DNA from: Antedon mediterranea
Lineage: Eukaryota > Echinodermata > Crinoidea > Comatulida > Antedonidae
Assembly: GCF_964355755.1 (NCBI RefSeq)
Contig: NC_092671.1
Span: forward strand, 20,984,001-21,048,000
Length of the DNA: 64,000 bases
Direction of reading: 5' to 3'
The notes beneath the pieces were generated by a model. It searched no databases and was not told where the DNA came from. It was given only the letters and a program-made list of their open reading frames with translations. Below, one piece after another: positions 2,504 through 47,865 of this stretch; within the stretch, counting starts at the first letter, position 1; each line of letters begins with the position of its first letter. A program made the translations under genes and the position numbers.

Positions 2504-3293
2504 TTACATCATGTGTTTGAATAAGTGCATTTTGTAGGATTGTAGATAATAAATAAATAATTTTGTTTGACAAATCCAAAAGAAATTACTCGCATTCTTT
2601 AGCTTTCGCCATCTTGGCTGATGGCTTGATCACAAGTGATCCGGTCCACTACTACTTCCTGGAAATCTGTTGTTATTGTTTCTAGGTGACGTCATACTTT
2701 TTCGTAGCAGTGATGTGTATACGTGATCGAGATATACAGCCCCTTCGTCGCGGTTGATTGCGTTAGTCCCCCTCTTTCTGATTTGGATTGCCTCTCTGAT
2801 TCTACGCTTGAATGGGTTAGAGTCTCTGTCAAGAATTTTTGCCCCATCCCAATCGATGATATGGTTTTCTTGCGCTGCATGGTCTGTGATGGCGGATTTG
2901 TGGATTTCGGATGTTGATTCCTTTCTTGTTGCCCGAGTGTATTTACGATCGGTGACCGTTTCAGTGTCTTTTTGGTGTTCTTTCAGTCTTACTCCAAATT
3001 GACGACCTGTTTCCCCAATATACGATTTCTTGCAACTTTTGCAAGGGATGTCGTAAACAATGTCACTTGTTTGGGTGATGTCCTTCTTGTCTTTGGGGTG
3101 GACTAAAATGCTTTTAAGAGTGTTCGTTGGACGCATGGCATGTCACCTAGAAACAATAACAACAGATTTCCAGGAAGTAGTAGTGGACCGGATCACTTGT
3201 GATCAAGCCATCAGCCAAGATGGCGAAAGCTAAAGAATGTGAGTAATTTCTTTTGGATTTGTCAAACAAAATTATTTATTTACATCATGTGTT
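2504..3293 (-). mobile_element. Short Penelope-like element with inverted terminal arms and 14-bp TSD
   Basis: The endonuclease fragment is enclosed by inverted arms of about 141 bp (2550-2690 and 3142-3282) that differ at about one base. Outside them the direct repeat TTACATCATGTGTT occurs at 2504-2517 and 3280-3293 and looks like a target-site duplication. Left of the arm, 2518-2549 has no partner, like the unpaired extension often seen at one end of Penelope elements. Terminal repeats that can be inverted and a 5' truncation are known features of this class; the reverse transcriptase is missing. The element lies in AT-rich DNA 270 bp before array 1. Confidence 0.8.
2630..3136 (-). CDS. Penelope-like GIY-YIG endonuclease domain (5'-truncated)
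   Basis: This 168-residue minus-strand frame is the C-terminal end of a Penelope-like polyprotein. Residues around 26-50 read VYDIPCKSCKKSYIGETGRQ, that is, the CxxC linker seen before the nuclease followed by a GIY-YIG core in the form SYIGET, with a downstream R and a conserved EH. In the family this nuclease nicks target DNA for target-primed reverse transcription. The upstream RT is absent, so this is a truncated copy and not a functional retroelement. The last ~20 residues are encoded by the left inverted arm and are probably not part of the original protein. The Met start is simply the first available and the original frame probably extended further. Family assignment is firm; activity is unlikely. 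Confidence 0.85.
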   Translation of the reverse strand: MRPTNTLKSILVHPKDKKDITQTSDIVYDIPCKSCKKSYIGETGRQFGVRLKEHQKDTETVTDRKYTRATRKESTSEIHKSAITDHAAQENHIIDWDGAKILDRDSNPFKRRIREAIQIRKRGTNAINRDEGAVYLDHVYTSLLRKSMTSPRNNNNRFPGSSSGPDHL

Positions 3294-3559
3294 CATTGAA
3301 GAATTTGTTTCTGATAATTGTCTTTCATATTTTCTTCCATGAATGTAGAGATTAAATACCTGTTGATAAATAATAATTTAATTAATTAAAATAAATTAAC
3401 TTTAAAAAATAATCTGTATTAATTTAAAAAAATGTTAACTGAAGAAAATGCAAACATAGATTTTTATAGCAGTATAACAGTTTTTAAATTAATCAATTAA
3501 AACTAAAAACCTACAAAATATGATTCCTTTCATACTTTATTAAAAAACATAATCCTCAA
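3294..3559. other. AT-rich spacer before array 1
   Basis: Low-complexity A/T sequence with TTAATTAAATTAA-like runs. I see no gene or element ends here. Confidence 0.5.
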
Positions 3560-5052
3560 CTAGAATTTAATTCGTCACTTTGACGAATTATAGGTGATCA
3601 TTTTTATCATTTTTATAAAATTAACATTTTTTAAACATGCATGTACGTTAACATACGATCGTTAAAAGTTGATGTACGCCATCCTATGACATGATTGCAT
3701 ATACACTTATAGTGCTGAGTTGTACCTATGTGTCATACAATATGTACAGTAGTGTAGCATAGGTGAAATTACGGGACTCGTATCGTGTTCTAATTTTTTG
3801 GTATGATGGAATTTTCAAAATAAACTCGAAGATGACAATTTCGAAAGATAATGAATTGAGCAAATAAATATAAGGATTGGAAGAAAATTTGACACGTAGA
3901 AGCGCAATGCGCGGTCTTTGAAATTTGTATAACTTTGACTAAATAAATTTAAAAACTACTTTTTAACTTCAACTGGCCATATGATAACATCACAACATCC
4001 GATAGGCTTAATTTTAATATGAATTCATATCTACATTTCATCAGCTTTCATAATAAGTTATAATCTTCAAGGTCACCTTTAATTCTGAAGAGCTATAAGA
4101 TATTCAAATGTATGGTGTAGCTGAAATTACACGACCTAGGTTATTCAAGTTTTTACGCGTGATGACGTCATCAAAATAAAAATGTTGACAACTCATTAGA
4201 AGAATAATTAATTGAGCAAGCACATACTAAAAGTTGTGCGAAAATCGGGCTCAAATAACGGAGATGCGCTCTATTGAATGTGATAACCCACACAAAAAGA
4301 AAAAAATTCCTAATTTTTTAATTCAAGTGGCCATTTGATGACGTCATACCATTTTGTACGTCTAATGTGTATATACATTTGTATCTACAACTTATTGGCT
4401 TCCATAATAAGTTAAAAAAATTGGGGGTCATCTGCCATTCTGAAGAGTTATATTCATTTTAAAAAGTCCTTATTTTTTACCATTTTTAGCACTTTTGTAC
4501 AATTAGTGTGCGCATTTTGTCATTTTTAACGTGCTCGTATAGCGTTATTTTAAGTCGGAATGGACTCAAAATTGGTGAATGTACTAAGGATTGTGAGTAG
4601 AATGTGATTTATACATCAAATTTGATTTTTTACGCATTTTAAGAATCGTGCGCACAAAAACACATTTTTGCGCAGTAATTTTTTGAAACGCGCAAATGGC
4701 CTAATTCATGCTCTAAATTGATCAAAACCTAATTTTGCGCGTTTTAAATTTTTAACGCGCGATTTCACGTGCATGACCTTGAAACGCGCAACTTTTTATT
4801 TGCTAATATTTTTACCCTTGACCTGAAGTTTACCTGTAGTGAATTTCATTAATATGTCATAATGAATTATGGAGATATGATTGATAATGTGATTTCACAA
4901 AATGGCGTATAAATGACGTCACGGATGAGTGATCACGCTGGAAAGCTGATTAGGATTAAGTTATATTATTTGAAAGATATTTTGGTAATCATTGACATTA
5001 AACTTTTTGAGATAATTGTTACACAAAATAGTGTACAGAAACAATAAAAAGA
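3560..5052 (+). mobile_element. Element A1 (type A), body; its 3' end is at 14567-14643
   Basis: This is the outermost element of array 1. It starts CTAGAATTTAATTCGTCA; the 5' hairpin stem is AATTCGTCA with loop CTT and TGACGAATT, followed by TAGGTGATCATTTTTAT. The matching 3' hairpin (GGTGATCA arm) is at 14611-14642, about 9.5 kb away because elements B1 and B2 inserted at 5052. The rejoined length is about 1.57 kb. The body resembles A2 (11198) more than any type B element. Confidence 0.8.
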
Positions 5053-6632
5053 CTAGACATGTAACTCGTCACTTTGACGAGTTAGTTATCCGCACGACAA
5101 ACGCCACGTGCACGTCATATGTTAGAATATTGCACACAGAAAAAGATTATGACCTGAACTGAAGAATATGATATGTTATTATTGCTGAATTTCTATTATT
5201 TTGATTCATATAATATAGTATACACAGTATAATCTGTATCCATATCACATACAGTGTAGAATAGCTGAAATTACGGGACCCGCTATTTATTGCAATTTTT
5301 AACATGTTGACGGTTTTAAAATGAAACGCGCAGGTAGCAATTTCGGAAGGAAGTTATCTCAGCAACAACATATTAACGTGTAGAAGAAATTTGAATACGT
5401 GAAATATTGATGCGCGCTTTTTTAAATGTAATGCATTATGACGTAAAAGATGAAAATACGACTTTTTTTATTTAACTGGTCATATGATGACGTCACAACA
5501 TCTGATTGGCAAAATGTTTACATAAATTCGTATCTACAATCCAATAGCTTCCAGAAAACGTTTTAATCATGATTATCACGTTTTATTCTGACGACCTATA
5601 ACAGATTGAAATTTACTGTAAAGACGAAAATAAGTAACCCACGTTATTTACATTTTTAGACATGATGACGTCATAAAAATTAAAATATTTTTAACTCATA
5701 CGAAATATAGTTGATTGACCTAGATAATATAAAAATCGGGGTAAAAATGGAAAACAGATAATTGGAGATGCGCTCTATTAAATGTCATGCGCTATGATAA
5801 AAGATACAAAAATCCTATATTTTATATTCGCATGGCCATACGGTGACGTCACAATGTTCGGTTAGCCATATTAATGCATGATCCAAAATCTACAACTCAT
5901 CAACTTTCAGAATATGCAAAAAAAATTACTTTCACCGTTTAGTTTAGGAACTACGACTGTTTAAAAAAGGGCACAATTTTGACAAATTTTGACGATTTTT
6001 TGAACTTTTTCATAAAAAATGCACGTAAATTATCCAATTCAACGTGCCCGTATGACGTAATTTTAAGTCGAAATTGTTCAAAAGTTGGTAAAATTACTAG
6101 AAAAGGCTGGAAAAACATAAATCACGCGAAAAAAAATTGTTTTCAACGCTACGTGCGTACCGCGCGCGTAAAAATTTGAGCGCACGTGGGAATTTTTTAC
6201 ATGCTCTAAATGACATGAAACGCGTAGAAAGTTGATTAGATATTGATTTTTCGCATTTTGAAATTTTAAACGCGCGTGCACGCGTAACTTCGTGTGAAAC
6301 ATGCCAATTTTTTTTCACATTCAGTTAGCGCAAGATATCAATTAAACTTTTGTTAAGTTTCAATTTAAATTGCTATATGGTTTTCAATCTATGTTAAATA
6401 GGCGAAACTCGTAAAAATGCGCGTAAGTCATGTTGCGCAACTCTGACGTCATTCAAAAATAGGAGGTGCACAACTTCACCTGAATGATCTCATGCTGACA
6501 AAGTTATAACATGTTATGTTTACACGTTTTTGAGATACGCGAGACACAAAAATAGAGGAGAAAGAAAGAAAAAAAAAAAAAAAAAGTAACAGGACAGTTA
6601 CAAGGAGTTATCCGCTGAGTGCGGATAACTAA
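5053..6632 (+). mobile_element. Element B1 (type B), complete
   Basis: This is an uninterrupted copy and so defines the element. CTAGACATG leads to a 5' hairpin (AACTCGTCA, loop CTT, TGACGAGTT), then AGTTATCCGCACG, a ~1.4 kb noncoding body, GAGAAAGAAAGA with a poly-A stretch, then ACAGTTACAAGG and the 3' hairpin AGTTATCCGC, loop TGAGT, GCGGATAACT (6605-6630). Length is 1580 bp. It is inserted in A1, and B2 follows directly after its end. Confidence 0.85.
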
Positions 6633-8161
6633 CTAGACATGTAACTCGTCACTTTGATGAGTTTGGTTATCCGCCGCGCAAGTGGTGCAACATTAACATT
6701 AAGGGGATAGGTTGAGGACAAAAGGAAGTGTTCACGTTGGCATTATGACCTGAACTGAAGAATATGATATGTTATTCGCTGAATTTTATTATTTTAATTC
6801 ATATATAGTATACACAGTATAATCTGTATCCATATCACATACAGTGTAGAATAGGTGAAATTAAGGGACCCGCTATTTATTGCAATTTTTAACATGTTGA
6901 CGGTTTTAAAATGAAACGCGAAGGTAGCAATTCCGAAAGGAAATTATCTCAGCAACAACGTATTAGCGTGTAGAAGAAATTTGAATACGTGAAATATTGA
7001 TGCGCGCTCTTTTAAATGTAATGAATTATGACGCAAAAGATGAAAATACGACCTTTTTTATTTAACTGGCCATATGATGACGTCACAACATCGATTGGCA
7101 ACATTTTTACATAATTTCGTATCTACAATCCAATAGCTTCCAGAAAAAGTTTTAATCGTGATTATCACATTTTATTCTTACGAGCTATAACAGATTAAAA
7201 TTTACTGTAAAGATGAAATTAATGCCACACGTGATTAAAATTTTTAGGCATGATGACGTCAAAAAAATTAAAATATTTTTAACTCATGCGAAAGATAGTT
7301 GATTGACCTAGACAATATCAAAATCGGGGTAAAAATGGAAAACGGATAAGTGGAGATGCGCTCTATTCAATGTGATGAGCTATGACGAAAGATACAAAAA
7401 TCCTAAATTTTATATTCGCGTGGCCATACGATGACGTCACAATGTCCGGTTAGCCATATTAATACCTGATCCGATATCTACAACTCATCTACCTCCAGAA
7501 TATGCCATCCACAAAAAGTTGACCGTCTAGTTTAGAAATTACACTGTTTAAAAAAAGGCATATTTTAAACGAATTTTTTAACCTTTTCACAAAAAACGCG
7601 CGCAAATTGTCCAATTCGACGTGCTCGTATGACGTATCTTCAAGTCGAAATTGTTTAAAATTTGGCAAAATTACTAGGAAAGGCTGGAAAAACATAAATC
7701 ACGCGAAAAAAATACGTTTTCAATGCTACGTGCGCACCGCACACGTAAAAATGTTCGCACGCGTGGGAATTTTTGAAATGCTTAAAACGACATGAAACGC
7801 GTAGAAAGTTGATTATAAATTAATTTTGCGCATTTTGAAATTTTAAATGCGCATGCGCGCGTAACTTTGTGTAAAACACGCAATTGTTTTTCAACAGAAA
7901 GTTAGCGCATGATATAAATTAAACTTTTGCAAAGTTTCACTTTAAAATGTTATTTGGTTTTCGACATATGTTAAATACGAGAAAATCGTTAAATCGCGCG
8001 TACGTCACGTTGCGCAATTGTAAACATCATGAAAAGCTTCGCTTGACGACGTTACATAAATGTCAAAATGTTAACATAGTTAACAAAATGTTATGTTTGC
8101 AAGTTTTAGAGAAAAGCATTACACAAAAATCATACAGAAAGAAAGAAGATTAAGAAAAAGA
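6633..8161 (+). mobile_element. Element B2 (subfamily B'), body; 3' end at 14509-14566
   Basis: It has CTAGACATG, the 5' hairpin with one G-U pair (TGATGAGTT arm), then TTGGTTATCCGCCGCGC. The same GGTTATCC signature is in its 3' hairpin at 14536-14565 (loop region TGCAACTTCGTTG). It is interrupted by B3 at 8161 inside AAGAAAAAGA/TGATGATG. It was inserted directly after the end of B1. Confidence 0.8.
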
Positions 8162-9686
8162 CTAGACATGTAACTCGTCACTTTGACGAGTTTGGTTATC
8201 CGCCGCGCAAGTGGTGCAACATTAACATTAAGGGGATAGGTTGAGGACAAAAGGAAGTGTTTACGTTGGCATTATGACCTGAACTGAAGAATATGATATG
8301 TTGTTATTGCTGAATTTTATTATTTAAATTCATATAGTATACACAGTATAATCTGTATCCATATCACATACAGTGTAGAATAGGTGAAATTACGGGGCCC
8401 GCTATTTATTGCAATTTTTTAACATGTTGACGGTTTTAAAATGAAACGCGAAGGTAGCAATTCCGAAAGGAAATTATCTCAGCAACAACGTATTAGCGTG
8501 TAGAAGAAATTTGAATACGTGAAATATTGATGCGCGCTCTTTTAAATGTAATGAATTATGACGCAAAAGATGAAAATACGACCTTTTTTATTTAACTGGC
8601 CATATGATGACGTCACAACATCCGATTGGCAACATTTTTACATAATTTCGTATCTACAATCCAATAGCTTCCAGAAAAAGTTTTAATCGTGATTATCACA
8701 TTTTATTCTTACGAGCTATAACAGATTAAAATTTACTGTAAAGATGAAATTAATGCCACACGTGATTTAAATTTTTAGGCATGATGACGTCAAAAAAATT
8801 AAAATATTTTTAACTCATGCGAAAGACAGTTGATTGACCTAGACAATATCAAAATCGGGGTTAAAATGGAAAACGGATAAGTGGAGATGCGCTCTATTCA
8901 ATGTGATGAGCTATGACGAAAGATACAAAAATCCTAAATTTTATGTTCGCGTGGCCATACGATGACGTCACAATGTCCGGTTAGCCATATTAATACCTGA
9001 TCCGATATCTAAAACTCATCTACTTCCAGAATATGTCATCCACAAAAATTTGACCGTCTAGTTTAGAAATTACGACTGTTTAAAAAAAGGCATATTTTAA
9101 ACGAATTTTTTAACCTTTTCATAAAAAACGCGCGCAAATTGTCCAATTGGACGTGCTCGTATGACGTATCTTTAAGTCGAAATTGTTTAAAATTTGGTAA
9201 AATTACTAGAAAAGGCTTGAAAAACATAAATCACGCGAAAAAAATACGTTTTCAATGCTACGTGCGCACCGCACACGTAAAAATGTGCGCACGCGTGGGA
9301 ATTTTTTACATGCTTAAAACGAGATGAAACGCGTAGAAAGTTGATTATAAATTAATTTTGCGCATTTTGAAATTTTAAATGCGCGTGCGCGCGTAACTTT
9401 GTGTAAAACACGCAATTTTTTTTCAACAGACAGTTAGCGCATGATATAAATTAAACTTTTGCAAAGTTTCATTTTAAAATGTTATTTGGTTTTCGACATA
9501 TGTTAAATACGAGAAAATCGTTAAATCGCGCGTACGTCGCGTTGCGCAATTGTAAACATCATGAAAAGCTTCGCTTGACGACGTTACGTGAATGTCAAAA
9601 TGTTAACATAGTTAACAAAATGTTATGTTTGCAAGTTTTAGAGAAAAGCGTTACACAAAAATCATACAGAAAGAAAGAAGATGAAA
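8162..9686 (+). mobile_element. Element B3 (subfamily B'), body; 3' end at 14443-14508
   Basis: Nearly identical to B2 and to U1 (49686) of array 2, including the leader after GGTTATCCGCCGCGC. Its closing hairpin at 14477-14506 is the same B' type as that of B2. It is interrupted by B4 after AGAAAGAAGATGAAA. Small Met-started frames in the body (near 9139 and 9479) recur in sister copies but show no protein family and drift in length, so I do not call them genes. Confidence 0.8.
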
Positions 9687-11197
9687 CTAGACATGTAACT
9701 CGTCACTTTGACGAGTTAGTTATCCGCACGACAAACGCCACGTGCATGTCATACGTTGGTATATGGCGCACAGAAAAAGATTATGGCATTATGACCTGAA
9801 CTGAAGACTATGATATGTTGTTATTGCTGAATTCTATTATTTTGATTCATATATAGTATACACAGTGTAATCTGTATACATATCACATACAGTGTAGAAT
9901 AGGGGAAATTACGGGACCCGCTATTTATTGCAATTTTTAACATGTTGATGGTTTTAAAATAAAACGCGAAGGTAGCAATTTTGGAAGGAAATTATCTCAG
10001 CAACAACATTTTAACGTGTAGAAAAAATTTGAATACGTGAAATATTAATGCGCGCTCTTTTAAATGTAATGAACTATGACGCAAAATATGAAAATACGAC
10101 TTTTTTTATTTAACTGGCCATATGATGACGTCACCACATCCGATTGGCAAAATTTTCACATGATTTTGTATTTACCATCCAATAGCTTCAAGAAAACGTT
10201 TTAATCGTGATTATCACATTTTATTCTTACGAGCTATAACAGATTGAAATTTACTGTAAAGATGAAATTAATGCCACACGTAATTTAAATTTTTAGGCAT
10301 GATGACGTCATAAAAATTAAAATATTTTTAACTCATGCTAAATATAGTTGATTAACCTAGACAATATCAAAATCGGGGTGAAAATGGAAAACGGATAAGT
10401 GGAGATGAGCTCTATTAAATGTGAGGAGTTATGACGAAAGATACAAAAATCCTAAATTTCATATTCGCGTGGCCATACGATGACGTCACAATGTCCGGTT
10501 AGCCATATTAATGCATGATCTGATATCTACAACTCATCAACTTCCAGAATATGTAATAAAAATAATTTTTACCGTTTAGTTTAGAAACTACGATTGTTTA
10601 AAAAAAGGCTTAATTTTGACAAATTTTTGAAGTTTTTCATAAAAAAAGCGCGCAAATTATCATATTCTACGTGCTCGTATGACGTAATTTGAAGTCGAAA
10701 TTGTTTAAAAGTTGGTAAAATTACTAGAAAAGGCTAGAAAAATATAAATCACTCGAAAAAATGACGTTTTTAACGCTACGTGTGCACCACGCGCGTACAA
10801 ATTTGCGCACGTGTGGGAATTTTTGACATGCTCAAAATGACATGAAACGCGTAGAAAGTTGATTAGAAATTGATTTTTCGCATTGTAAAATTTTAAACGC
10901 GCGTGCGCGCGTAACTTCGTGTAAATCATGCCATTTTTAGTTCACAAAAAGTTAGCGCACGATATAAATTAGACTTTTGCTAAGTTTCAATTTAAATCGT
11001 TATATGGTTTTCGATCTATGTTAAATACGCGAAATTCATAAAAACGTGCGTAAGTCATGTTGCGCAACTCTGACGTCATTCAATGATAGGAAAGCACAAC
11101 TTCACGTGATTGCCCATATGTTGACAAAGTTATAAAATGTTAACTTTACACGTTTTAGAGATACGCTCTGCACAAAAATGACAGAAAGAAAGAAGAA
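9687..11197 (+). mobile_element. Element B4 (type B), body; 3' end at 14361-14442
   Basis: Starts CTAGACATG with 5' hairpin and AGTTATCCGCACGAC. Very close to U2 (51209) of array 2. Its closing hairpin at 14415-14440 has the loop CATAG, as does the closing hairpin of U2 at 56236, which independently confirms the pairing. It is interrupted by A2 after GACAGAAAGAAAGAAGAA. TGACGTCA occurs at 10126, 10303, 10481 and 11071. Confidence 0.8.
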
Positions 11198-12719
11198 CTA
11201 GAATTTAATTCGTCACTTTGACGAATTATAGGTGATCATTTTTATCGCTTTACTTACATTAATATTTTTTAAACATGCACGTACGTTAACATACAATAGG
11301 AAAATGTTGATGTATACCATCCTGTTATACGCTTATAGTGCTGAGTTGTGCCTATTATGTGTCATATACAATATGTACAGTATATACTGTATATCTATAT
11401 ACAGTGTAGCATAGGTGAAATTTCGGGACCCACATTATGTTCAAATTTTTTGGTATGATGGAATTATCAAAATAAACTCGAAGATGACAATTTCGAAAGA
11501 TAATGAATTGAGCAAATAAATATAAGGATTGGAAGATAATTTGACACGTAGAAGCGCAATGCGCGCTCTTTGAAATTTGTATAACTTTGACTAAAGAAAT
11601 TTAAAAACAACGTTTTAACTTCAACTGGCCATATGATAACATCACAACATCCGATAGGCTTAATTTTTATATGAATTCATATCTACATTTAATCAGCTTT
11701 CATAATAAATTATAATCTTCAAGGTCACCTTTAATTCTGAAGAGCTATAACATATTCAAATGTATGGTGTAGCTGAAATTACACGACCTTGGTTATTAAA
11801 GTTTTTACACATGATGACGTCATCAAAATAAAAATGTTGACAACTGATGAGAAAGATAATTAATTGAGCAAGCACATACTAAAATTTCGGCGAAAATCGG
11901 GCTCAAATAACGGAGATGCGCTCTATTGAATGTGATAACCCACACAAAAAGATAAAAATTACTAATTTTTAAATTGAAGTGGCCATTTGATGACGTCATA
12001 CCATTGTGTACGTCTAATGTGTACATGAATATGTATCTACAACCCAATGGCTTCCCGAATAAGTTAAAAAAATTTGGGGTCACCTGCCATTCTGAAGAGT
12101 TATATTCATTTTAAGAAGGCCTTATTTTTCACCATTTTCAGCACTTTGATGCAATTAATTTGCGCATTTTGTTATTTTTAACCTGCTCGTATAGCGTTAT
12201 TTTAAGTCGGAACTGACTCAAATTTGGTGAATGTACTAAGGATGGTGAGTAGAACGCGATTTGTATAAAAAAATTGCAATTTTTACGCTTTGTTGTAAGT
12301 ATCGCGCGCGCAAAATATTTTTTTTGCGCAGTAATTTTTTGAAACACGCAAATGGCCTAATTCATGCTCTAAATTGATTAAAACGTAATTTTGAGCTTTT
12401 TAAATTTTTAATGCGCGATTCTACGCGCATGACCCTACGTGCGCGCGCGTTTTTACTTGCTAATATTTTTACCCTTGACCTGAAGTTTACGTGTAGTGAA
12501 TTTCATAAATATGTGATAATGAATTATGGATATATGATTGATAATGTGATTTCACAAAATGGCGTATACGTGACGTCACGGGTGAGAGATCACGCTGAAA
12601 AGCTTATTATGGCTAAGTTAAAGTATTTGAAAGACATTGTGAAATTTTTGTGATCATTGCTATTCAACTTTTTGAGATATTTGATGAACAAAAAGTGTAC
12701 AGAAAGAAGAATAATAACA
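11198..12719 (+). mobile_element. Element A2 (type A), body; 3' end at 14305-14360
   Basis: Starts CTAGAATTTAATTCGTCA with the type A hairpin and TAGGTGATCATTTTTAT. It closes with the type A hairpin at 14328-14360 (GGTGATCATTT arm, loop TATTCT). The body is the closest relative of A1. It is interrupted by B5 within AATAATAACA/AATAAAG, upstream of the 3' hairpin. Confidence 0.8.
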
Positions 12720-14304
12720 CTAGACATGAAACTCGTCACTTTGACGAGTTAGTTATCCGCTCGACAAACGCCACGTGCACGTCATACGTTACAATATTGC
12801 GCACAGAAAAATATTAAGGCATTATGACCTGAACTGAAGAATATGATATGTTGTTATTTCTGAATTCTGTTATTTTGTGTCATATAGTATACACAGTACA
12901 ATCTGTATACATATCACAAACAGTGTAAAATAGGTGAAATTACGGGACCCGTATTTTATTGTAATTTTTAACATCTTGACGGTTTCAAAATGAAATGCAA
13001 AAGTAGAAATTTCAGAATGAAATTATCTCAGCAACAACATATTAACGTGTAGAAGAAATTTGAATACGTGAAATATTGATGCGCGCTCTTTTAAATGTAA
13101 TGAAATATAATGCAAAAGATGAAAATACGACTTTTTTTATTTAACTGGCCATATGATGACGTCACGACATTCAATTGGCACAATTTACACATGATTTTGT
13201 ATCTACAATACAATAGCTTCCTGAAAACGTTTTAATCGTGATTATCACATTTTATTCTTACGAGGTATAACAGATTAAAATTTACTGTAAAGATGAAATT
13301 AATGACCAACGTAATTTAAATTTTTAGGCATGATGACGTTAAAAAAATTAAAAAAATTTTAATTCATGCAAAAGATAGTTGATTGACCTAGAATATATTA
13401 AAATCGGGGTGAAAATAGACAACGAATAAGTGGAGATGCGCTCTATTAAATGTGATGAGCTATGACGAAAGAGACAAAAATCCTATATTTTATATTCGCG
13501 TGGCCATACGATGACGTCACAATGTCCGGTTACCCATATTAATGCATGATCCGATATCTACAACTCATCAACTTCCAGAATATGTAATTAAAAAAAAGTT
13601 CTCCATGTAGTTTAGAATCTATGACTGTTTAAAAATAGGCATAATTTTGACAAATTTTTGAACTTTTTCACCAAAAACGCGTGCAAATTATGTAATTCGA
13701 CGTGCTCGTATGACGTAATTTTAAGTCGAAATTGTTTAAAAGTTGGTAACATTACTAGAAAAGGCTGAAAAAACATAAATCACGCGAAAAAAATATGTTT
13801 TTAACGCTACGTGTGCACCGCGTGCGTAAAAATTTTCGCGCGCGTGGGAATTTTTGACATGCTCAAAATGACATGAAACGCATAGAAAGTTGATTAGAAG
13901 TTGATTTTTCGCATCCTAAAATTTTAAACGCACGTACGCGCGTAACTTTTTGTGAAACATGCTATTTTTAATCCATAGAAAGTTTGCGCTTGATATGACT
14001 TAAATTTTCACAAAGTGTCAAAACAAAATTATGTTTGGTTTTTAGTCTATGATCAATCATTGAAATTCATAAAATCACGCGTACGTCACGTTGCGCAACT
14101 CTGACGTCATTCAAAAATAGGAGGTGCACAAGTTCACGTAAATGTCGATGTGTTGACAAAGTTACGATATGTTCTGTTTACACGTTTTAGAGAAACGCGA
14201 CGCACAAAAATGACAGAAAGAAAGAAGTATAATACAGAAAAAAAAAAAAATTTGATGAAACAGGACGATTACAAGGAGTTATCCGCTACTAAGCGGATAA
14301 CTAA
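12720..14304 (+). mobile_element. Element B5 (type B), complete, innermost
   Basis: Uninterrupted copy from CTAGACATG to the 3' hairpin AGTTATCCGC, loop TACTAA region, GCGGATAACT at 14277-14302. About 1.58 kb. As the innermost bracket it should be the youngest insertion of the series. Its body shares a 3' section with the second half of U4 in array 2. Confidence 0.8.
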
Positions 14305-14643
14305 ATAAAGATTTTGTACAATAACAATAGGTGATCATTTTATTCTAAATGATCACCTAATAATACAGAAAAAAAAAAAAAAAAAAAAGATGATGAAACA
14401 GGACAGTTACAAGGAGTTATCCGCCATAGTGCGGATAACTAAAAAAAGATGATGATGATTTCGTACAATCACAAGAGGTTATCCTGCAACTTCGTTGCGG
14501 ATAACCAATGATGATGATTTCGTACAATCACAAGAGGTTATCCTGCAACTTCGTTGCGGATAACCAAAAAAAAAAAGAAAAATAATAATAAAGATTTCAT
14601 ACAATTACAATAGGTGATCATTTTATTCTAAATTATCACCTAA
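14277..14643 (+). repeat. Six stacked 3'-terminal hairpin modules
   Basis: Each module has a leader resembling TACAATCACAAGAGG or GACAGTTACAAGGAG, a perfect or near-perfect hairpin, and a short AATAA-like tail. Positions: 14277-14302 (B), 14328-14360 (A), 14415-14440 (B), 14477-14506 (B'), 14536-14565 (B'), 14611-14642 (A). The order is the exact reverse of the open 5' ends B5, A2, B4, B3, B2, A1. Confidence 0.85.
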
Positions 14644-16615
14644 TTAATAACCACAGAATATCACTTGAAAATAAGTGGACCTGTCCATAATGTATTTAAC
14701 TTTCATGGTACGGACGATTCCATTTACCATAATAGGGATGTTGAGCATTTCACACTAATATGTTTTAAAACACTTTAAAATAATAAAGTACCTAATATTA
14801 TTATTATTCGGAACTTTATGAATAGCAAATATATTAGTCATAATTATAATCAATGTTGGTTAAAATTTAATATAGATTTAACCTCCGTTAAGCCAAAATT
14901 CTACTGACAGTCTTCTGCAGGAAGTCCTAAGTTAGCCTCAGCCTGAGTAGAGACAATATAACTAAATGGACTAGCCTATATGGCTTGATTGAGAATCGAA
15001 AAACATGTGCCTACTATTTTCTTTTTCCGTTCATCAATTCTCAACCAATCATTTTAAAGGCCAGGTGCAGGCAAAAAATTTCTATTGATCATACATTCCA
15101 ATAATTATCGATCTATAGTTTCCCATATGTTTCATAATTTTTGGGATTTTATTTTTGTTACATGGGCTTGTTGAAAATAAGCACTTTCTTATCAGTGGGG
15201 GTTCAAATTACACAGTAAAATCTCTATTCTTTTGTACACAAATTTTGTAATAGAGAGGCATATTAAAAAGCTATGAAAAATAAACGGTGTGGTAAAAATG
15301 TTATCAGATGACTAAATATAGGTAATATAACTTGAATATTACATTTCTGATATTTTTATTCAACTTCAGATTTTTATTTTCATGCTATAGCAAAAATTAT
15401 CCACCGTATATCCACCATCTTTTTTCACTTTCTAGGGTGTCACCAGTCATGTTATTACATTAGGTCAACTACCTAACTACTGAAAAAAAAAGACTTCTGG
15501 TTTTTATGGAAGAATTTTGCAAAATTTTGTATTTGACCATATTAAGGGAAATTCATGTTTTTTTGTCTTGATTTCTGTTACAAATATTTGATTTATGTAC
15601 AATTAACCAACTACTATATTTAAAATTTATGCCTCTACCTGAGCTTTAATATTTCAACAATAGGTACTTCAAACATTATATTTTCATATTATTTGTGTCT
15701 TTGATTTAAAATATTGCATCAACCTACCCAAAAAACGAAGACAATTTTTGAAAGTTCACCAATTCTGTTCTAGACATCGTAATGCTTTGCCTTTGCATTT
15801 CACTTCGGAAACCAATCTAATTGTCAATCACCTCAGGTTGTCACGGAAACTCCAATCAAAAAGCATCATACTCTTAGATGATCTCCAAAAATGGGCGGTG
15901 ATAAACGGCAAACCAATCAAAGGGCGAGAATCCAAAATCGTTCAACCGTAAGCCCTCATAGACTCTTTTCCCAGACGGTTTTTGGTTTCAGCAGCTGGAA
16001 TCTATAAATTATAGTAGAGTTTACAAAGTCGCAAAACTGTCAGCCTTAGTACTATAGCTACCGCGATGAAACGATTTCTTAATGAGTTTGTCCTCCTGGG
16101 ACATAGCCGGCTAGAGCCGCTGCGCGAAAACATCAGTGTCAGGGCTGATTATAACATTATATTTACCACCATGGTCTGCAGCATACTTCGCATGAAGAAA
16201 CATTTTGGTGTCTGCCTCCTCTTAATTAGAACTTCTCCATTTGATTCTGAAATAGAATTGCATAATGTACCATGAGTTATGAATACATTTATTCCCATGA
16301 GGTGATCTGCTTCACACATGCTCCATATCTGAAAGAAGAACTTGATTAGCTGCTATTCCTTGTTGTAGCTATCAGATAACAATTTTTTCCACTTTTTTTT
16401 AATTTGCTGTTTGGCTTTTGATATTTTAATTGTTTGTTTGCCGGTGGCTGCTCTTCAACTTCGTTCAGCATTTTTTATGCAGTTTGTGTAATTGCTACAT
16501 GTGATCGCAGAATTCTCCTTTGTTTAGTAACAGGTTCTGCTGTTGACTCTCTTTTGTTGACTTTAATCCTTGAAATTCCTCTGTAAAAAAAAAAAAATTA
16601 GGTTATACTGTACAG
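14644..16615. other. AT-rich DNA without a recognised gene
   Basis: No frame shows family resemblance. A 67-residue frame at 15748-15951 and a 69-residue frame at 16066-16275 have no recognisable motif. Poly-A and poly-T tracts are common. Intergenic DNA or a large intron is possible. Confidence 0.45.
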
Positions 16616-17579: not shown

Positions 17580-19555
17580 TAGGTATCCCAATGAAAAAAT
17601 TCAGATAAATTTTTTTACTTTTTCTTTCAGTTAACCATAAAGAACTTAATGTAATTAGCATTTTGCAATTTAAATGATTGAAATCCGATTACCCGTTCTA
17701 AAGTTATGGTTATTTAAAGTGGTAAAAAATATACGATTTTTTGCCTAAAATTGTGTTTTTTGCAGTTAAAATTGGAAGCATTTTTAAAAGGTTATAACTT
17801 TTACAATAATTAGTTAAAAGTTTTGAATTTTGTTAAACCTATAGATATCACAGAGTTGTACAACTCTATTTTTTTTGGAGCCTCAACGAAACCTATTTTT
17901 AAAATTATTGGTCCGCAAAGTGGTAGGAAAGCATTTAGCGCCCATTTTTGCTGGAATTCCCTAAAAAAATGCAATTTTTCAATGATCTGTAACTTTTGAA
18001 CTACTGTACTAATTCATTTAATTTTTTTTGTACTTGTTAGAATGTAGTGTATATTTCATTAATAAATATATTTTAGATGTGTATATAAAAAAAAAAAAAT
18101 TTTTAATGGTGAAATTTAAAATGATCAAAAAAAAAAAAATGAAAAACTATGTTAAAAACTGTGTGTACTGTTTCCTTTCTTTTACACTAATTTTCGGTAA
18201 GTATAATTATTAGAATATTTTAATATACTTTATACCGTATTTATAATTTCAATCATAAATAATTTTATTTTAGGCCCGTATGATTATGACACCAAATCTA
18301 AGCCGGGCTAAGATATGCTCTTTTAAGGCAAACACACAATGGGTCAAAATAAACTCATTTAAAATAATCAATGTTAATTAAAACAATTAATTGTTTACAT
18401 GAATAGTATATATAACATTATAAAAATTGTTTTCTTTTCGTATTTCTAACCGTAAGTACGTTATTAAATTGAAATACGGAGCTAAAGTTTAGGCCAAGTC
18501 AGCAGTCGCTCCCGTTAAAGTATTTCGGTCGCAGTTAATGACTTTCGACCGCCGTATACAGAGTCAAATGTAACGTTGGTATAAAATTAGCTTAATAAAT
18601 TTCTTCGGTACATTTTAACCTAACGCATTTGCATTGTATACTTGCATAATAAATCTTCCGCACATTACATCAATTTTAAGTTGTTAAATTAATGTGTAAA
18701 ACCAGATATTCTACGACGGAATAGGACATGTCAATCTCCGACATCGCTGCTGTCACACATCTCGCGTCGAGCCGGCCGAAGTCGAGCGAGGAAAACTAAA
18801 CAACGTGTTTAAAATATGGAACGTACCATTCGCTGATAGGGTGCATTGATGTATTAAACGGAAAACGTCACAACAAACTAGCGCGTACTTTACAGTACAA
18901 TATTTTACTCACTACAATATTCACCGGATTATAATGGTTCAATCTTAGATATTCTGAACGGGATTTACGCCTCATGCACCATTTTAAAATGTAGTTCGCA
19001 CAATTACCATGCACAATACGTTTGTAATCTATGTTTTATCGATTTCAATGTAGATTTAGCTATAATTTAATACCAAAATCCATAAAAATTTTTCCATAAA
19101 CGGTGATTCAAAATTTGGGGTTTTGTCACCAAAATTGATCTTTCGTTACGAAAACCTATTTATAGAAGACGATTTTCACATCAAATTAAAGCTCATTTAA
19201 AGCCTGATAACAATTAACATACAACAAAAATTAATCCGCTAGCTTCAATGGTAATCGTGCAATCGTGTTTTGAAAACTGATGGGGATTTTCCGATGAGGT
19301 TTTCAACGCGCGGAAATCGGCTCGACAGGATTTTAGAACCGTTTTAAAATCGCATTTTCTCGGCAACTACTTCATTAATTTTAATTGTAAACACACTTAT
19401 ACATAGATTAAAACAAGTACTTTCAAACAATATAAATTTTTAAAGTATTAATTAAGAGTGAACACGATTTATTTACCATCAGTCATACTACTTATTTAAA
19501 TTTTTTTAATATTTCAAAAGTGATACCCCTCTGTACGCTTTCATTGGGATACCTA
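17580..19555. mobile_element. TIR element (TAGGTATCCC family), copy 1, nested in Tigger
   Basis: TIR TAGGTATCCCAATGAAA at the left is mirrored at 19539-19555, with a 7-bp duplication ATAGCAG on each side (17573-17579, 19556-19562). It interrupts the transposase frame cleanly. No coding capacity was recognised in 1976 bp. A second, inverted copy is at 30420. The superfamily is not assigned; a 7-bp duplication is unusual. Confidence 0.8.
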
Positions 19556-19790
19556 ATAGCAGATGTAGAAGGTGGAATGAAAGTAATGGAAGCAACGAAA
19601 AAGTATGGGCTTGGAAAATCAACGATCTATGACATTATGAAAGCTAAGGATAAATATCGGAGCAAGAAGGAAGTCAGCAAAGGTACAACATTCAGAGTGA
19701 TCAAAACTAAGTTTTTGGACATCGACCAGCTTATGTTAGTTTGGTTTAGAACTGCTAGGGATAAACATATCCCCATTAGTGGACCCTTAA

Positions 19791-21931
19791 CACTTTGACT
19801 GCCAAACACGAAGATCTTCGTTTTTGGAAACGCAACGCTTGACTGCCAAACACGAAGATCTTCGTTTTTCGCGTTTTTTTACGAAATCCGGTAGGTAGGT
19901 AAATTATTGGTATATACTATAAATATGGACACTAAATTCGGTCTGGACCGTGAATATTTTACCTTTTGAAAGTAACTAATCTGGTTACGAACGATTGTCA
20001 AAATGGTACCTGTTGAAATAACATACACCGCGCATCACAGTAGCGCGTACAACGATGGTTTGGCGCATTGTGTATCGGTCGCACGCTAGCTATGCCGCCG
20101 AAGCATTACAAAGGTTTATGTGGATTGGCATGTTTGTTTGTTATCTGAATAAAAAATAATGGATGAATTTTCAATAAGAAGTCTTTAATTTTATTATTGT
20201 ATGTATACCCTAATTGTTTTGGTGTTTCACTGTAAGTGGCAGAGTTTCACGCCACAAACTTGTTTAGAAATGGTATGAATATTATCATCAGTTTACTAGC
20301 TAGGCTAGTAGTACTAGGCTATAGCCTAGGCCTAGTCGTAAAACGGTTCCGGACCAACTTTAGGCCTAGTTAACTAGGCCTTGTGTCTTTACTAGGGTGT
20401 CACGAAACCTAAGATCACGAAAGCTCCGACCCCCTAAAACCTAAGATCACGAAAGCTAAGACCCAACACCTAAGATTACAAATACTAAGATATACAGCTT
20501 AAAAACAATACTTGTTTATCCATACATAATTTTAAACACAGTAGGTTTCATTTATTACCATAATTATAATTTAATACTACCGCAAAACATAGATAAACTC
20601 ACATTATTTTCGCCCGTTGAGTAAATGTATATTTTTTCTTTACAACAAACAAACTTGACGGGTTGTTTGTTGGTATATATTTACTCTATTGTGTTGGTTC
20701 AGAGGATGTTTTTCTTACGCACCTGCCTTTCTTGTATTTTGACTCCAAATTTGTTGACTAACTTTATCCTGAACACCACACTTTAAAATTAGGACTTATA
20801 AGTACTTTCAGAAGGAGAAACACATAATAACAAATAAATAAATCCTTTAAATTGATGATTTTACAGATGTGTTTCTGGCGTGTTTCTTTGTATACTGTAA
20901 TGTAACTCCTCGAGCTCCCCATGCTCAATGTTTTTGTTTCTATGGAGCGCCAAAAGAGCAACAATAATAGTACAAGTATAAAAACAGAAAGAAAACGAAA
21001 CAAAAAAACTTATCATGATTTTTAAATTAAAATTTATTTGCCAGTATTTATTTCTTCGTACTTGCATGATTATACTATTATCATTACAATTTTAATTTTA
21101 CATTGTTCCATCCACACTGTAGATGGACTCCACAGAGTTTTCAGCCCTCTATATAATTTTTGCTCTTTTGACGTTCCATAGAAACAAAAACATTGAACAT
21201 GGCCCATGGGGTAGGCCTACTGTACTGTAGGCTAGTCATTTTGTGTGCGAGAAAAACGTCTGTAAAATCATCAATTTAAAAATGTATTTGTTACTTTTTA
21301 TGTGATTCTTTTTCATGAAAGTGCCAATTCTAAGGTGTGGTATTCAGAATAAATGTTGGGAGTTAAAATACAAGGCAGGTGCGAAAGATAAATATTTGTA
21401 ATCTTAGGTGTTGGGTCTTAGCTTTCGTGATCTTAGGTCTTATGGGGTCTTCGCTTTCGTGGTCTTAGGTTTCGTGACACCCGTCTTTACTATGTGGATT
21501 TTGGCAAAACATTGATGTAAGATTTATGATTTATAAAATGTAATACATTTTTCGATAGTGATAACTTGTTTTTATAGGCCTACCGGTGCCGTGTAAGTAA
21601 CTTTTTCGTTGTTTGTTGATCTCACCGGGCGATATTTTCATATTGTGATGTCTTGCACAAAATCGCGAATATCTCGACTTTCTTGCACGAAACTAAGAAA
21701 AACTCAAAAAGTGCGTTACTTTCATTTTACTATTACAACTTATATATTGCGATTTGAAAATCGTTCTTGGTACCATTGTAAAGCTAAAATCTTTATGATT
21801 ATTTTAGTCTAAATTACATGTAAATCAGATCACATACATAGTTTCAATCAGCTTTAATAAAAACATCGAATTGGGCTATAAACGCTGGCGGTGGCAGTTT
21901 CTAACTGGAAAAACCTCTGGCAGTCAAAGTG
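19791..21931. mobile_element. piggyBac-type non-autonomous element, nested in Tigger
   Basis: Ends CACTTTGACTGCCA / TGGCAGTCAAAGTG with TTAA on both sides (19787-19790, 21932-21935), the piggyBac target and TIR style. Near the left end the segment CTTGACTGCCAAACACGAAG is repeated after 44 bp and contains the small palindrome CGAAGATCTTCG. No transposase is seen. A Mutator-like element (20395-21482) sits inside. Confidence 0.85.
20395..21482. mobile_element. Mutator-like foldback element nested in the piggyBac element
   Basis: Terminal GGGTGTCACGAAACC is mirrored at the right end, and a 10-bp duplication GTCTTTACTA flanks it (20385-20394, 21483-21492). The arms match over ~100 bp. Further inverted matches continue inward, for example CGCACCTGCCTT at about 20719 against AAGGCAGGTGCG at about 21371, and a stretch near 20850 against one near 21265. 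Most of the element could therefore fold back. Duplication length and long TIRs fit a Mutator-like superfamily. It is noncoding. Confidence 0.75.
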
Positions 21932-28630: not shown

Positions 28631-30039
28631 TCATTTTCAAATTCCCCAGCCTTTCTCAAAGGCTCATATTGGTATGGCTGAATTTCTAACGGAAAAGTTT
28701 CTTCTTCGGAATCGGAATACATTTTGCGAGGATTGGCTTTTTCATGTACTCATCCAGCGTGATCGTTTTCAGGGAAGATAGCGAAACCCGATATGACGTC
28801 ACGACTGTAAAGTTAATGAGTTGGCTCTAAACGCTCTAAATCGTATTTTCAAACGTCGATTTTAGCGGTAAAAATTGCATAAAAAATTTCAAAAAACCTA
28901 ATATATATTTTATTATACCTAAACAATCATCACAAATACTCAAATAGGTGTTGACATTTCTGCTTTAAGGGTTTAAAAAATGTCCATGAGTGCGCAGATT
29001 TTTGCACGTGCACTGCGCGTTAAACGTTACTGCATACTCTTTTTGTCTGATTTCTGTTGTACAACCTTTCTTTAATAATATCATCATATTTTGTTCACTT
29101 TTCAATTCGAATTTGCGTTATATACGAGCACGTCAAACGTGACAGGCTACGTACATGTAAGTTAACAAAATGGTGAAAATATGCTAAATTTTAAAAATAA
29201 TATAGATCGTCAGAATGCTCGGGAACACCTATTTTTTATTTCATTTTCTTGAAGTGTATGTATCATATGTATGATTTATTATGAAATTAAGAGAACAAAA
29301 GTTGATAAAGTCATCATTTATTGCATTTTAAATTTAAATCATTTTCTTAGGCCTAAATAACAAACTTAGTAGTCGTATCCCGCTGTGTAAGGGAATCTGA
29401 TTGAACAGTTACTGTTGCACAGCTCCATGAGTTAAGAAAATTTTTTGATTGGTCAATTGTGCGACCTGTATTGACCTGCAAAAATCTTATTTTATGTTCC
29501 AAACAGCGGTAACTGTGCACCAGTTTGCGGTACCCAATTTGCGGTAATGCTTTTATTTGATACGCCGCTCGAGTTTGATCACGTGACTGAGAATTTTCAA
29601 CTTTTCAATGTAAACAAGATCGTAGTGTTTGAAAGCATAAATAAAACACAAACAATTCATAATAATATTAATTCTTGTTTATTATGTTTAAAATTAATTG
29701 AAAATATGTTTACATTTACACATTTAATGTGAAAATAATGAAAAAATATGAATTAAAAACCAACCTACCGCTAATTAGATCAGGCCACATGGCTGGTCCA
29801 ATTAGCTGTAAGTAAGAAAATCTTAAAATGGACTAGTCCATGAGGTATTTTATTGGTTATCTGCACTTGGTGGATTACCCCTTGTTATTGTCAGGATCTT
29901 TTTTTTTTCTGTCTTAATCTTATCTCTTTTCTTATTTTGTTGCACGTGTGTATCTAATTCTGATCAACATAATATTGTAGAACTTTGTCATAAGATTGAC
30001 CTGTATCTGTACTGTAGATGTGCAAGAAACTTTGTTATT

Positions 30040-30415
30040 ATGACGTCAGAGTCACGCAGTGCACAGTACGCATGATTTTATGAAATTTTATGGTTGCTCA
30101 TAAATAAATAAGAATTTATTTTTCAATGAAACTTTACGAAAGTGTATTTCATAATATGGAGCAACTTTTGGCATGATCAAAATTGGGTGCTACGCAAAAA
30201 ATTACGGAAGTACGCGTATTTGAAATTTAAAAATGCGCAAAATTAATTTCTAATCAATGTTGCGTACATTTCAGGCCATTTGCGTTTTGCGCGCGTAAAA
30301 AGCGTAGAAAAATGGTTTTTGTAATTAATTTTTGTTTTTCATACCTTCTGTAGTAGATTACATTCATTTTGATGAACTTTAAATTTAATTGAAAAATAAC
30401 AGTGCATGTTGAACT
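30040..30415 (-). mobile_element. Minus-strand fragment of the array element family
   Basis: The segments ATGACGTCAGAGT, GCGCAAAATTAATTTCTAATC and TTTTGCGCGCGTAAAAA match, in inverse orientation, the 3' part of the array bodies. Neither terminal hairpin is present. Confidence 0.6.
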
Positions 30416-30419
30416 TTAA

Positions 30420-31865
30420 GTAGGTATCCCAATGAAATCGCACAGAGGGGTATCACTTTGGAAATATTAACAAAATTTGAATAAGTAGTATGACTTTGAT
30501 GGTAAATAAATCGTATTTACTTTTAATTAATACTTATAAAATTTATATTGTTTGAAAGTACTTCTTGTTTTAATCTATGTATAAATGTGTTTACAATTAA
30601 AATTAATGAAGTAGTTGCCGAGAAAATGCGATTTTAAAACGGTTCTAAAATCCCAGCGAGCAGATTTACGAGCGTTGAAAACCTCATTGGAAAATCCCCA
30701 TCAGTTTTCAAAACACCATTGAAGCTAGCGGATTAATTTTTGTTGTATGTTATCAGGCTTTAAATGAGCTTTAATTTGATATGAAAATCGTCTTGTATTA
30801 ATAGGTTTTTCGTAACGAAAAGTCAATTTTTTTGACAAAAATACAATTTTGAATCACCCTTTACGGAAAAATATTATGGATTTTGGTATTAAATTATAGC
30901 TAAATCTACATTGAAATGAAATCGATAAAATATAGATTACAAACGTATTGTGCATGGTAATTGTGCGAACTACATTTTAAAATGGGGCATAAGGCGTAAA
31001 TCCCGTTCGGAATTTTTAAAGATTCAACCGCACGCGTTTGTTGTGGTGTTTTCCGTTAAATAAATTAATGCACCCTATCAGCGAATGGTACGTTCCATAT
31101 TTTGAACACATTGTTTAGTTTTCCTCGCTGAGTTCGGCTCGGCCGGCTCGACGCGAGATGTGTGACAGCAGCTAGCAATGTGATCAGCGGAGCTTGACAT
31201 GTCCCTTTCCGTTGTAGAATATCTGTTTTTAGATATTAATAACAGCTTAAAATTGGTGTATTGTGCAGAAGATTTATTATGCAAGTATACAATCCAAATG
31301 CGTTGGGTTTAAATGTACCGAAGACATTTATTAAGCTAATTTACCAACGTTACATTCGACTCTGTATACGGCGGTCGAAAGTAATTAACTGGGACCGAAA
31401 TACTTTGACGGGAGCTACTGCTGATCGTGAGTAAGCCGTTACTTGGTCTAAACTTTAGCTCCGTATTTAAATTTAATAACGTACTTACGGTTAGAAATAC
31501 GAAAAGAAAACCATTTTTATAATGTTATATACTATTCAGGTAAACAATTAATTGTTTTAATTAACATTGATTATTTTAAATGAGTTTATTTTGACCCATT
31601 GTGTGTTTGTCATAGAGCATATCTTAGCCCGGCTTAGATTTGGTTTCATAATCATTCGGGCCTAAAATCTTGTTTATGTATTCAAAATTTATATATAATA
31701 GTATTTATGATTGAAATTATGAATATAAAGTATATTAAAATAATATAATAATCATACTTACCAAAAATTTGTGTGAAATAAAGGAAACAGTACACAAAGT
31801 TTTTAAAAATCAAACTTGAAATATTGTATAAAAAAAGCTAAACAGAAATTTAAGAAAAAAATTTA
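30420..31865. mobile_element. TIR element (TAGGTATCCC family), copy 2, truncated and inverted
   Basis: Begins TAGGTATCCCAATGAAA and is the inverse of about 18100-19555 of copy 1 at a visibly diverged level. The distal TIR is missing. Element S1 of the array family starts right after it at 31873. Confidence 0.75.
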
Positions 31866-33454
31866 GCGAAAATTAGATTTGAACTCGTCACTCTTGACGA
31901 GTTATTTATCCGCACGACAAATGCCGCGTTCACCTTACGAATTTTGCATACAGAAAAAAGATTACTTTGCATTATGACCTAAACTGAAGAATATGATATG
32001 TTGTTAGTGTTGAATTCTGTCAATTTTATGTCATGTAGTATATACGGTATAAACAGTATATTAAATCTGTATACATATTACATACAGTGTAGAATAGGTG
32101 AAATTACGGAACTCGCCATTTATTTCAATTTTTAATATGGCCAAGGTATCAAACTGAAACACTAAGATAGCAAATTCGAAAGGACATTATCTCAGCAACA
32201 ACATATTAACGTGTAGAAGAAATTTGAATACGTAAAATATAGATGCTCGCTCTTTTAAATGTGATGAACTATGACGCAAAACATGAAAATACAACTTTTT
32301 TTATTCAAATGTCCATATGATGACGTCACAACATCTGATTGGCAAAATGTTCACATGAATTCGTATCTACAATCTAATAGCTTCCAGAAAACGTTTTAAT
32401 CATGATTTGCTATAACAGATTGAAATTTACTGTAAAGATGAAAATACGTGACCCACATTATTTACATTTTTAGACATGATGACGTCATAAAAATTAAAAG
32501 ATAGTTGATTGACCTAGACAATATCAAAATCGAGGTGAAAATGGAAAAAGAATAAGTGGAGATGCGCTCTATTAAATGTGAGGAGCTACTGTATGACGAA
32601 AGATGCAAAAATCCTGTATTTTATATTCGCGTGGCCATACGATGACGTCACAATGTCTGGTTAGCCATATTGATGCATGATTCGATATCTACAACTCATC
32701 AACTTCCAGAATATGTAATTAAAAAAAAGTTCACCTCGTAGTTTAGAATCTATGACTGTTTAAATAAAGGCATAATTTTGACGAATCTTTAATTTTTTTC
32801 ATCAAAAACGCGCGCAAATTGTCCAATTCTACGTGCTCGTATGACGTCATTTTAAGTCGAAATTGTTTAAAAGTTTGTAAAATTACTAGAAAAGGCTGGA
32901 AAAACATAAATAACTCCAAAAAATAATGTTTTTAACGCTACGTGCACACCGCGCGTAAAAATTTTGGCGCTCATGGGAATTTTTGACATGCTCAAAATGA
33001 CATGAAACTTGTAGAAAATTGATTAGAATTTTTTTTTTTTCATTTTTAAATTTTTAATGCACGTGCGCGCATAACTCTGTGTAAAACACGCAATTTTTTT
33101 CCACAGAAAGTTAGCGCATGATATAAATTAAACTTTTGCAAAAGTTTCAATTTAAAATGTTATTTGGTTTTTTACCTATGTTAAATACGCGAAATTCATA
33201 AAATCGCGCGTAAGTCACGTTGCACAATTGTAAACAAGCTGAAAAGGTTCGCTGCACAACTTTATATGAATGACGATATGTTGAGAAAGTTACGAAATGT
33301 TACTGTATGTTTGCAAGTTTTTTTTTTATCTTTTATGTGTCTCTCCCATCTTTATTCATTCAATATTTATTCATTCAATAAAGTATATACAAAATTCATT
33401 ATTATAAATGAGGGTACGTTTATTTTAAATACATAATATAAAAATAACGCTTAA

Positions 33455-33871: not shown

Positions 33872-34424
33872 AACACATTGTTGACTTAGTAGGTTTCTTT
33901 TCGACTTTCCTAATGTTATCTTTAACTTTTTTACTTATGAATACAGGGACAATGCTTTTGTTTATCTTGTGACTTAGTTGGCATAGCTGTCGCTTGACGG
34001 AGTTCGCAGATTTCTGGTCTTTGAATGGCAGGATGATTCGCACTGGTATTTCGGATAAATCTGTTTCACCTTCTGCAGTGTTGTTATTGCTCTCTGCTGG
34101 TTTAAAGTTCTGTATGGTTGTTGTTATTAGTTCATCTGGATATTTCAGACGCTTAAAAATCTTCCTTAGAATTTCACATTCATCATTAAAAAGCTGGTGG
34201 GTCGACGATAGTTTGTAAGCCCGATTTAACATAGTTATAATAAGTGACCTTTTATACTTGTCAACGTGACTATTGTAGTGTAGCAATAAGCCTGTGTCTG
34301 TTGGCTTTCTATAAACCCGTGTGTGCAATTTTTCCAAATCTTTGGTTATCAGCATTCCTAGGAAAGGGATTGAATTGTTCACGGCAGTTTCCATTGTGAA
34401 CAAATGTTCCTTTAACCGAGACAA
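33864..34424 (-). CDS. Penelope-like reverse transcriptase C-terminal region and linker
   Basis: 186 residues. The segment NNSIPFLGMLITKDL followed by RVYRKPTDTGLLLHYNSH is the conserved C-terminal RT region (thumb side) of Penelope elements. Then come a helical section and a charged linker (FISKKVKDNIRK) leading into the nuclease. The frame ends a few residues before the CxxC linker because of a one-base shift near 33870. The upstream palm with the catalytic YVDD is not in this orientation but inverted at 34425-34745. Confidence 0.85.
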   Translation of the reverse strand: MSRLKEHLFTMETAVNNSIPFLGMLITKDLEKLHTRVYRKPTDTGLLLHYNSHVDKYKRSLIITMLNRAYKLSSTHQLFNDECEILRKIFKRLKYPDELITTTIQNFKPAESNNNTAEGETDLSEIPVRIILPFKDQKSANSVKRQLCQLSHKINKSIVPVFISKKVKDNIRKVEKKPTKSTMCCV

Positions 34425-47806: not shown

Positions 47807-47865
47807 GTTAAAAACAGATGATTTCATTTGTACAGAAACCGGTCCTATATATTTGTCTACTTTTG

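Follow-up and report, generated by a model that had tools for sequence, protein, structure and literature searches.

Probable stepwise nesting of non-autonomous Helitron-superfamily elements with Helitron2-like ends in the crinoid Antedon mediterranea

Organization of the two arrays

The window analysed here is the whole 64,000-nucleotide stretch of Antedon mediterranea contig NC_092671.1, and it contains two arrays of related elements, all lying on the minus strand. Array 1 (3560-14643) consists of seven element ends and seven hairpin modules that together form a single balanced last-in-first-out nest. Sequence reading of 3300-15000 together with an end scan places the starts of the element ends, as met along the plus strand, at 3560 (A), 5053 (B), 6633 (B′), 8162 (B′), 9687 (B), 11198 (A) and 12720 (B), and the modules close at 6632 (B), 14304 (B), 14360 (A), 14442 (B), 14508 (B′), 14567 (B′) and 14643 (A). 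The hairpin loop divides B into three subtypes (b1, b2 and b3), all of whose loops are also present in array 2; in these terms array 1 opens in the order A, b1, B′, B′, b3, A, b2 and closes with b1, then b2, A, b3, B′, B′, A. The initial annotation had described seven ends and seven hairpins balanced with matching subtypes, and reading and scan recovered the same order.

The outermost element, A1, has its body and 3′ end at 3560-5052 (CTAG terminus at 3560, next minus-strand base T) and its 76-nt 5′ terminus at 14568-14643. Within A1 lies an uninterrupted 1,580-bp element, b1_1 (5053-6632), which adjoins Bp1 (body and 3′ end, 6633-8161; 59-nt 5′ terminus, 14509-14567). There follow Bp2 (8162-9686; 66 nt, 14443-14508), b3_1 (9687-11197; 82 nt, 14361-14442) and A2 (11198-12719; 56 nt, 14305-14360), and the innermost element, b2_1 (12720-14304), is again uninterrupted at 1,585 bp. 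The depth of nesting is strictly six, the closed b1_1 standing beside Bp1 and the outer A enclosing both.

Array 2 (49686-56339) is balanced four to four, with ends at 49686 (B′), 51209 (b3), 52719 (b1, closed at 54317) and 54318 (b2), and with stacked modules closing at 56182 (b2), 56263 (b3) and 56339 (B′). Its outermost element is Bp3 (body and 3′ end, 49686-51208; 76-nt 5′ terminus, 56264-56339), followed by b3_2 (51209-52718; 81 nt, 56183-56263) and two adjoining uninterrupted elements, b1_2 (52719-54317; 1,599 bp) and b2_2 (54318-56182; 1,865 bp). An internal 292-bp tandem duplication at 55514-56100, whose halves are 82% alike, is carried by b2_2; it is possibly old, or built from two variants.

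Terminal structures and affiliation of the elements

Read on the minus strand, all 11 array elements finish in CTAG, followed by T. In the three 3′ ends folded, a hairpin stem ends 9 nt (b1_1), 8 nt (A1) and 10 nt (Bp1) before the terminus, slightly shorter than usual but in keeping with the hairpin, some 10-12 nt before a terminal CTRR, by which the Helitron superfamily is recognised; two of the three are strong (z -2.9 and -4.2), and that of Bp1 is weakened by mutation (z 0.1). The opposite end begins with TT in 11/11 elements, rather than the TC canonical for Helitron1, and a strong terminal hairpin is present in all five 5′ modules folded (z -5.9 to -7.9). Helitron1 elements have neither a 5′ hairpin nor a terminal inverted repeat, whereas the array elements carry both, the inverted repeat being asymmetric.

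The arrangement of these repeats resembles that reported for Helitron2 in the part of the account by Bao and Jurka (2013, PMC3627910) drawn on here, with a 5′ T, a terminal hairpin whose 5′ inverted repeat lies within 0-2 bp of the terminus, and a partner repeat placed roughly 30 bp from the 3′ end (about 20-30 bp in the working definition), just upstream of the 3′ hairpin. In the array elements the 5′ repeat starts 0-1 nt from the end (11/11), the 3′ repeat lies 30 bp (b1_1) or 31 bp (A2) from the 3′ end, and the 5′ repeat is exactly complementary over 8-13 nt to a stretch just upstream of the 3′ hairpin (11/11). This complementarity follows subtype, being 8-13 nt for A with A, at most 5 nt for A with B or B′, 11-13 nt for B with B, and 9-10 nt for B with B′; the terminal repeat segments thus co-vary, A and B differing throughout, and B and B′ by matched changes.

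Each of the nine insertion sites has T on its 3′ side, A|T in six and T|T in three with no target duplication seen, boundaries inside A/T tracts being uncertain by 1-2 nt. The same part of the Helitron2 account gives TTTT|T or C as target (TT in Helentrons), unlike the array elements, which end in CTAG and insert mostly at A|T, as does Helitron1. The layout is the published Helitron2 plan combined with a 3′ end and target of Helitron1 type. Among 10 scanned frames, out of 39 of at least 95 aa, none gave a RepHel gene or a remnant of one, and an Rfam search returned nothing at gathering thresholds. The 21-base end motif matched no viral contig; a single bacterial contig containing it was taken as chance. 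By their ends and targets the units look like members of the Helitron superfamily, and we consider it likely that they are non-autonomous members with Helitron2-like ends that accumulated by stepwise nesting.

The initial annotation placed each new insertion upstream of an older 3′ hairpin. Serial insertion stands, but the polarity is, to judge by structure, reversed: because a hairpin lies 8-10 nt from CTAG at the other end, and because the layout is Helitron2-like, the stacked modules are read as 5′ ends. On this reading, newcomers went in a short way downstream of an older element's 5′ terminus.

Pairing of bodies with 5′ modules

When each body is rejoined with its bracket-assigned module, 10 of the 11 elements measure 1,569-1,599 bp, a uniformity that supports the nest; the exception is b2_2, with its duplication. 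The junctions rejoin without target duplication, and across the join b3_1 and b3_2 match the uninterrupted b2_2 and, except for 3 nt, b1_2. A search of the window with the end motif, allowing at most three mismatches, gave 25 matches against 1.4 expected (the maximum in 100 shuffles was 5); 11 of the matches are the array ends, 10 are those palindromes read on the opposite strand, and four are others.

With the subtypes fixed, 180 × 6 orders of the stacked modules are possible (array 1 × array 2), and a single one of these is the nest in both. Among 120,960 within-array assignments of modules to bodies the nest has the top agreement between body and module (r 0.7233), tied by three others that swap only A1 with A2 or Bp1 with Bp2; because these same-subtype swaps tie, the pairing within A and within B′ rests on the brackets. 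Swapping the b1 and b3 modules in both arrays gives a nearly equal 0.7225, and for the six b elements taken alone 4 of 720 permutations, the nest counted, equal or beat it. The first-in-first-out assignment gives r -0.09.

Body identities are 90.2% for A1 and A2, 96.6-97.7% among the three B′, 98.0% for b3_1 and b3_2, 87.3% for the b1 pair and 85.4% for the b2 pair. By raw identity b1_1 and b1_2 are each about 88-89% identical to the b3 bodies, slightly closer than to each other, and b2_1 is 88% identical to b3, closer than to b2_2. In maximum-likelihood trees of the bodies A, B′ and b3 are supported, b1 moderately so (83/88), and b2 is left without resolution; in trees of the last 45 nt of the modules b1, b3 and B′ each form identical groups, and b2 (93/98) and A (98/96) form pairs. 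The refuting outcome named in the initial annotation, body and module trees that disagree on the pairing, did not appear as any supported disagreement, though the b2 bodies give no resolved group to compare. Terminal branches are short in Bp1 (0.013), Bp2 (0.010) and b3_1 (0.010) and long in A2 (0.054) and b2_1 (0.079); the order of ages is compatible with the nest, and because of the two long branches it is not decisive. The nest and its order are well supported, the weakest point being which b1, b2 or b3 module goes with which body, and the mirror order, pairing scores and trees together give good support to the original proposal of repeated nested insertion rather than tandem duplication.

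Positions and orientation of insertions

The seven interrupted sites lie at nucleotides 56, 59, 66, 76, 76, 81 and 82 from the 5′ end of the older element. All seven fall within nucleotides 50-90, although only 4-7% of the W|T sites of those elements are found there, and lengths indicate no other insertion within the bodies, the duplication in b2_2 aside. The chance figure for position is 8.8e-10 (3.5e-8 allowing for 40 windows; 1.4e-5 for array 1 alone) on the assumption of independence, which the near-identical sites of b3 in B′ may break. All nine inserted elements have the orientation of their host element (one-sided p 0.002, or 0.004 for 8/8 if one event is shared). These p values are optimistic, the events being few and noticed through their forming arrays.

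Much of this could follow from plain target preference, under which the history is the same but the transposase prefers T-rich tracts of a given orientation that precede A|T or T|T, of which the element by chance has one, the 5′ end playing no special part, an account that we regard as possible, if on the doubtful side. The T-richest 30 nt start at nucleotides 42-69 in 11/11 elements and coincide with the hot spot, the interrupted sites lying inside or at the edge of them, and the part of the Helraiser study cited here (PMC4778049) describes insertion at AT, with TT among the alternatives, and a preference for AT-rich flanks, most pronounced on the 3′ side. Against this, none of 14 other A/T runs of at least 10 nt outside the arrays is interrupted by this family, as compared with 7 of 13 family 5′ tracts (p 0.002), an exploratory comparison that is subject to ascertainment bias and in which a run once broken would be shorter and more readily overlooked. 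The sites at which A1 and Bp3, the outermost elements, entered host DNA lie outside T runs, so that a T tract is not required for insertion, an observation that tells against our favoured account as well. In addition, at two of the interrupted sites a second element, Bp1 or b2_2, lies flush with the 5′ boundary of a b1, where the junctions read CTAG|TTAG. For b2_2, insertion at an A|T made of a host A and the first T of b1 would explain the junction, a configuration discussed for adjoining maize Helitrons in the part of PMC2267711 used here; the case of Bp1 is a T|T site.

Proposed history and competing explanations

In the stepwise history that we favour, A1 would have entered host DNA at A|T, followed by b1_1 and Bp1 into A1, Bp2 into Bp1, b3_1 into Bp2, A2 into b3_1 and b2_1 into A2. 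At each of the interruptions a T lying 56-82 nt past the older 5′ terminus, within the T-rich stretch that follows the terminal hairpin, would have received the CTAG 3′ end of the newcomer, with Bp1 coming to adjoin b1_1 inside their shared insertion site in A1. A RepHel-type transposase supplied from elsewhere may open the 5′ end of resident copies, and the T-rich strand beside the hairpin, exposed as single-stranded DNA, could then take up a circular incoming copy, which would fix both position and orientation. According to the same part of PMC4778049, Helraiser cleaves single-stranded but not double-stranded ends, and its insertions are randomly distributed without local hopping, so that tethering gains no support. 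We give targeting at an opened resident 5′ end somewhat less than an even chance, since the T tract alone may suffice. It is conceivable, though we think it rather unlikely, that the 5′ end is an oriented landing pad for elements of its own kind, that families grow by stacking 5′ ends, and that the subtype-matched terminal repeats act as address codes, the match being sharper for A against B and B′ than for B against B′. By such codes each 5′ end would recognise its own 3′ end, and mobilisation could take a nest in its entirety or in the form of a many-headed element.

A different history, in which a composite of B′ containing b3 and its contents moved as a unit into both places, draws on the insertion point of b3 in B′, which is equal within one or two bases in the two arrays, and on the next insertion, which lies at the identical point of b3 in both. 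We judge it improbable: there are 35 differing sites between Bp2 and Bp1 and 47 between Bp2 and Bp3 (p 0.06 for this divergence comparison), the shared derived sites number one for Bp2 with Bp3 as compared with three each for Bp2 with Bp1 and Bp1 with Bp3, the contents of b3 differ (A2 in one array, b1_2 and b2_2 in the other), and Bp2 lies inside Bp1 whereas Bp3 lies inside other DNA.

Tandem duplication, a rolling-circle concatemer or circle integration by homologous recombination would account for same-strand units of about 1.5 kb and for the two CTAG|TTAG junctions, but these processes predict one hairpin per unit whereas six are stacked in mirror order with different subtypes, and both adjoining pairs combine different subtypes, making such origins very improbable. 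We rejected tandem and concatemer models on the missing per-unit hairpin and the first-in-first-out score given above, and circle integration by recombination on the reasoning that it would give alternating hairpins. An assembly artefact in a repeat, for which units of up to 98% identity might be cited, is more remote still, as misassembly would not be expected to yield mirror-ordered, subtype-matched brackets twice with exact ends.

Relationship to previously described elements

Self-insertion and multiple 5′ termini have been described before for Helitrons of Fusarium and maize in the portions of the reports considered below. The FoHeli elements of Fusarium oxysporum (PMC5148889) have Helitron2-like ends, and self-insertion was proposed for them; in FoHeli1 copies the 5′ end is repeated over its first 31, 65, 73 or 85 nt, a pattern consistent with insertion just behind that terminus. 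Most of those presented there are relics in which extra 5′ ends accompany one 3′ end, whereas here both ends are kept and the order of seven plus four elements can be read. Maize Helitrons (PMC2267711, PMC3288121) likewise include nested elements and elements of different types adjoining head to tail at a G/T junction, and multiple 5′ termini occur in 17.6% of helA; they have canonical TC...CTRR ends, and the sections of these papers cited here describe no oriented hot spot behind a 5′ hairpin. The DINE-1/HINE elements, non-autonomous Helentrons (PMC4067079), are similarly non-coding, with subterminal inverted repeats, a 3′ stem-loop and T-rich targets, but differ in their TT insertion and their microsatellite or central repeats, and the excerpted description includes no CTAG end. 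A Helitron-like family linked with (GAAA)n tracts is named in a reference title in PMC3789558.

What is unusual is the combination of an intact, readable nest with an oriented hot spot, and of Helitron2-like ends with a CTAG end and A|T targets. In the portions of the literature examined we found no intact balanced nest, and we make no claim that none is in print; what may be new, on the evidence of a few events in one window, is that the hot spot is oriented and sits behind the 5′ hairpin of elements whose nest is preserved in full. Such a nest provides ordered, oriented insertion events into known sequence and bears on Helitron target choice, on how copies pile up, and on the origin of elements bearing more than one 5′ end. 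That the 5′ end should act as a target is also a clear prediction, countable in any genome with this element family.

Relics and other features of the window

Outside the arrays the balance of 5′ and 3′ ends is lost, and the copies are relics that do not test the nest. They include, at 29853-30290, a decayed 5′ end whose tract is uninterrupted, on the plus strand and so opposite in orientation to the arrays; a minus-strand 3′ part without 5′ end at 31870-33302, an old copy that may end in CTAA|T near 31870; and an internal piece at 61486-62272, plus in element polarity. A lone minus-strand 5′ end at 36381-36489 has a B′-type loop but a B-type stem, both sides of which have changed together, and runs into unrelated, probably retrotransposon-derived DNA. 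At 57859-57940 (plus strand) there is a possible 80-nt micro-element of A type, with a decayed 5′ repeat, a 3′ repeat and half of a 3′ hairpin.

A satellite block at 47456-49417, mostly G-rich with 15-, 17- and 22-bp units and a strong GC skew, stops about 270 bp from array 2. A 1.4-kb inverted pair (18152-19555 and 30421-31806) is 83% alike, and the frame at 19436-19798 gives a sub-threshold CENP-B_N match. Probable retrotransposon fragments are located at 2630-3142 (minus), 34400-34834 (plus), 35647-36213 (minus), 41979-43013 (minus) and 58471-59274 (plus), with GIY-YIG, reverse transcriptase, zf-RVT, and endonuclease and zf-RVT domains; among the protein matches listed are soft coral, leech, and Antedon mediterranea itself at 36% identity.
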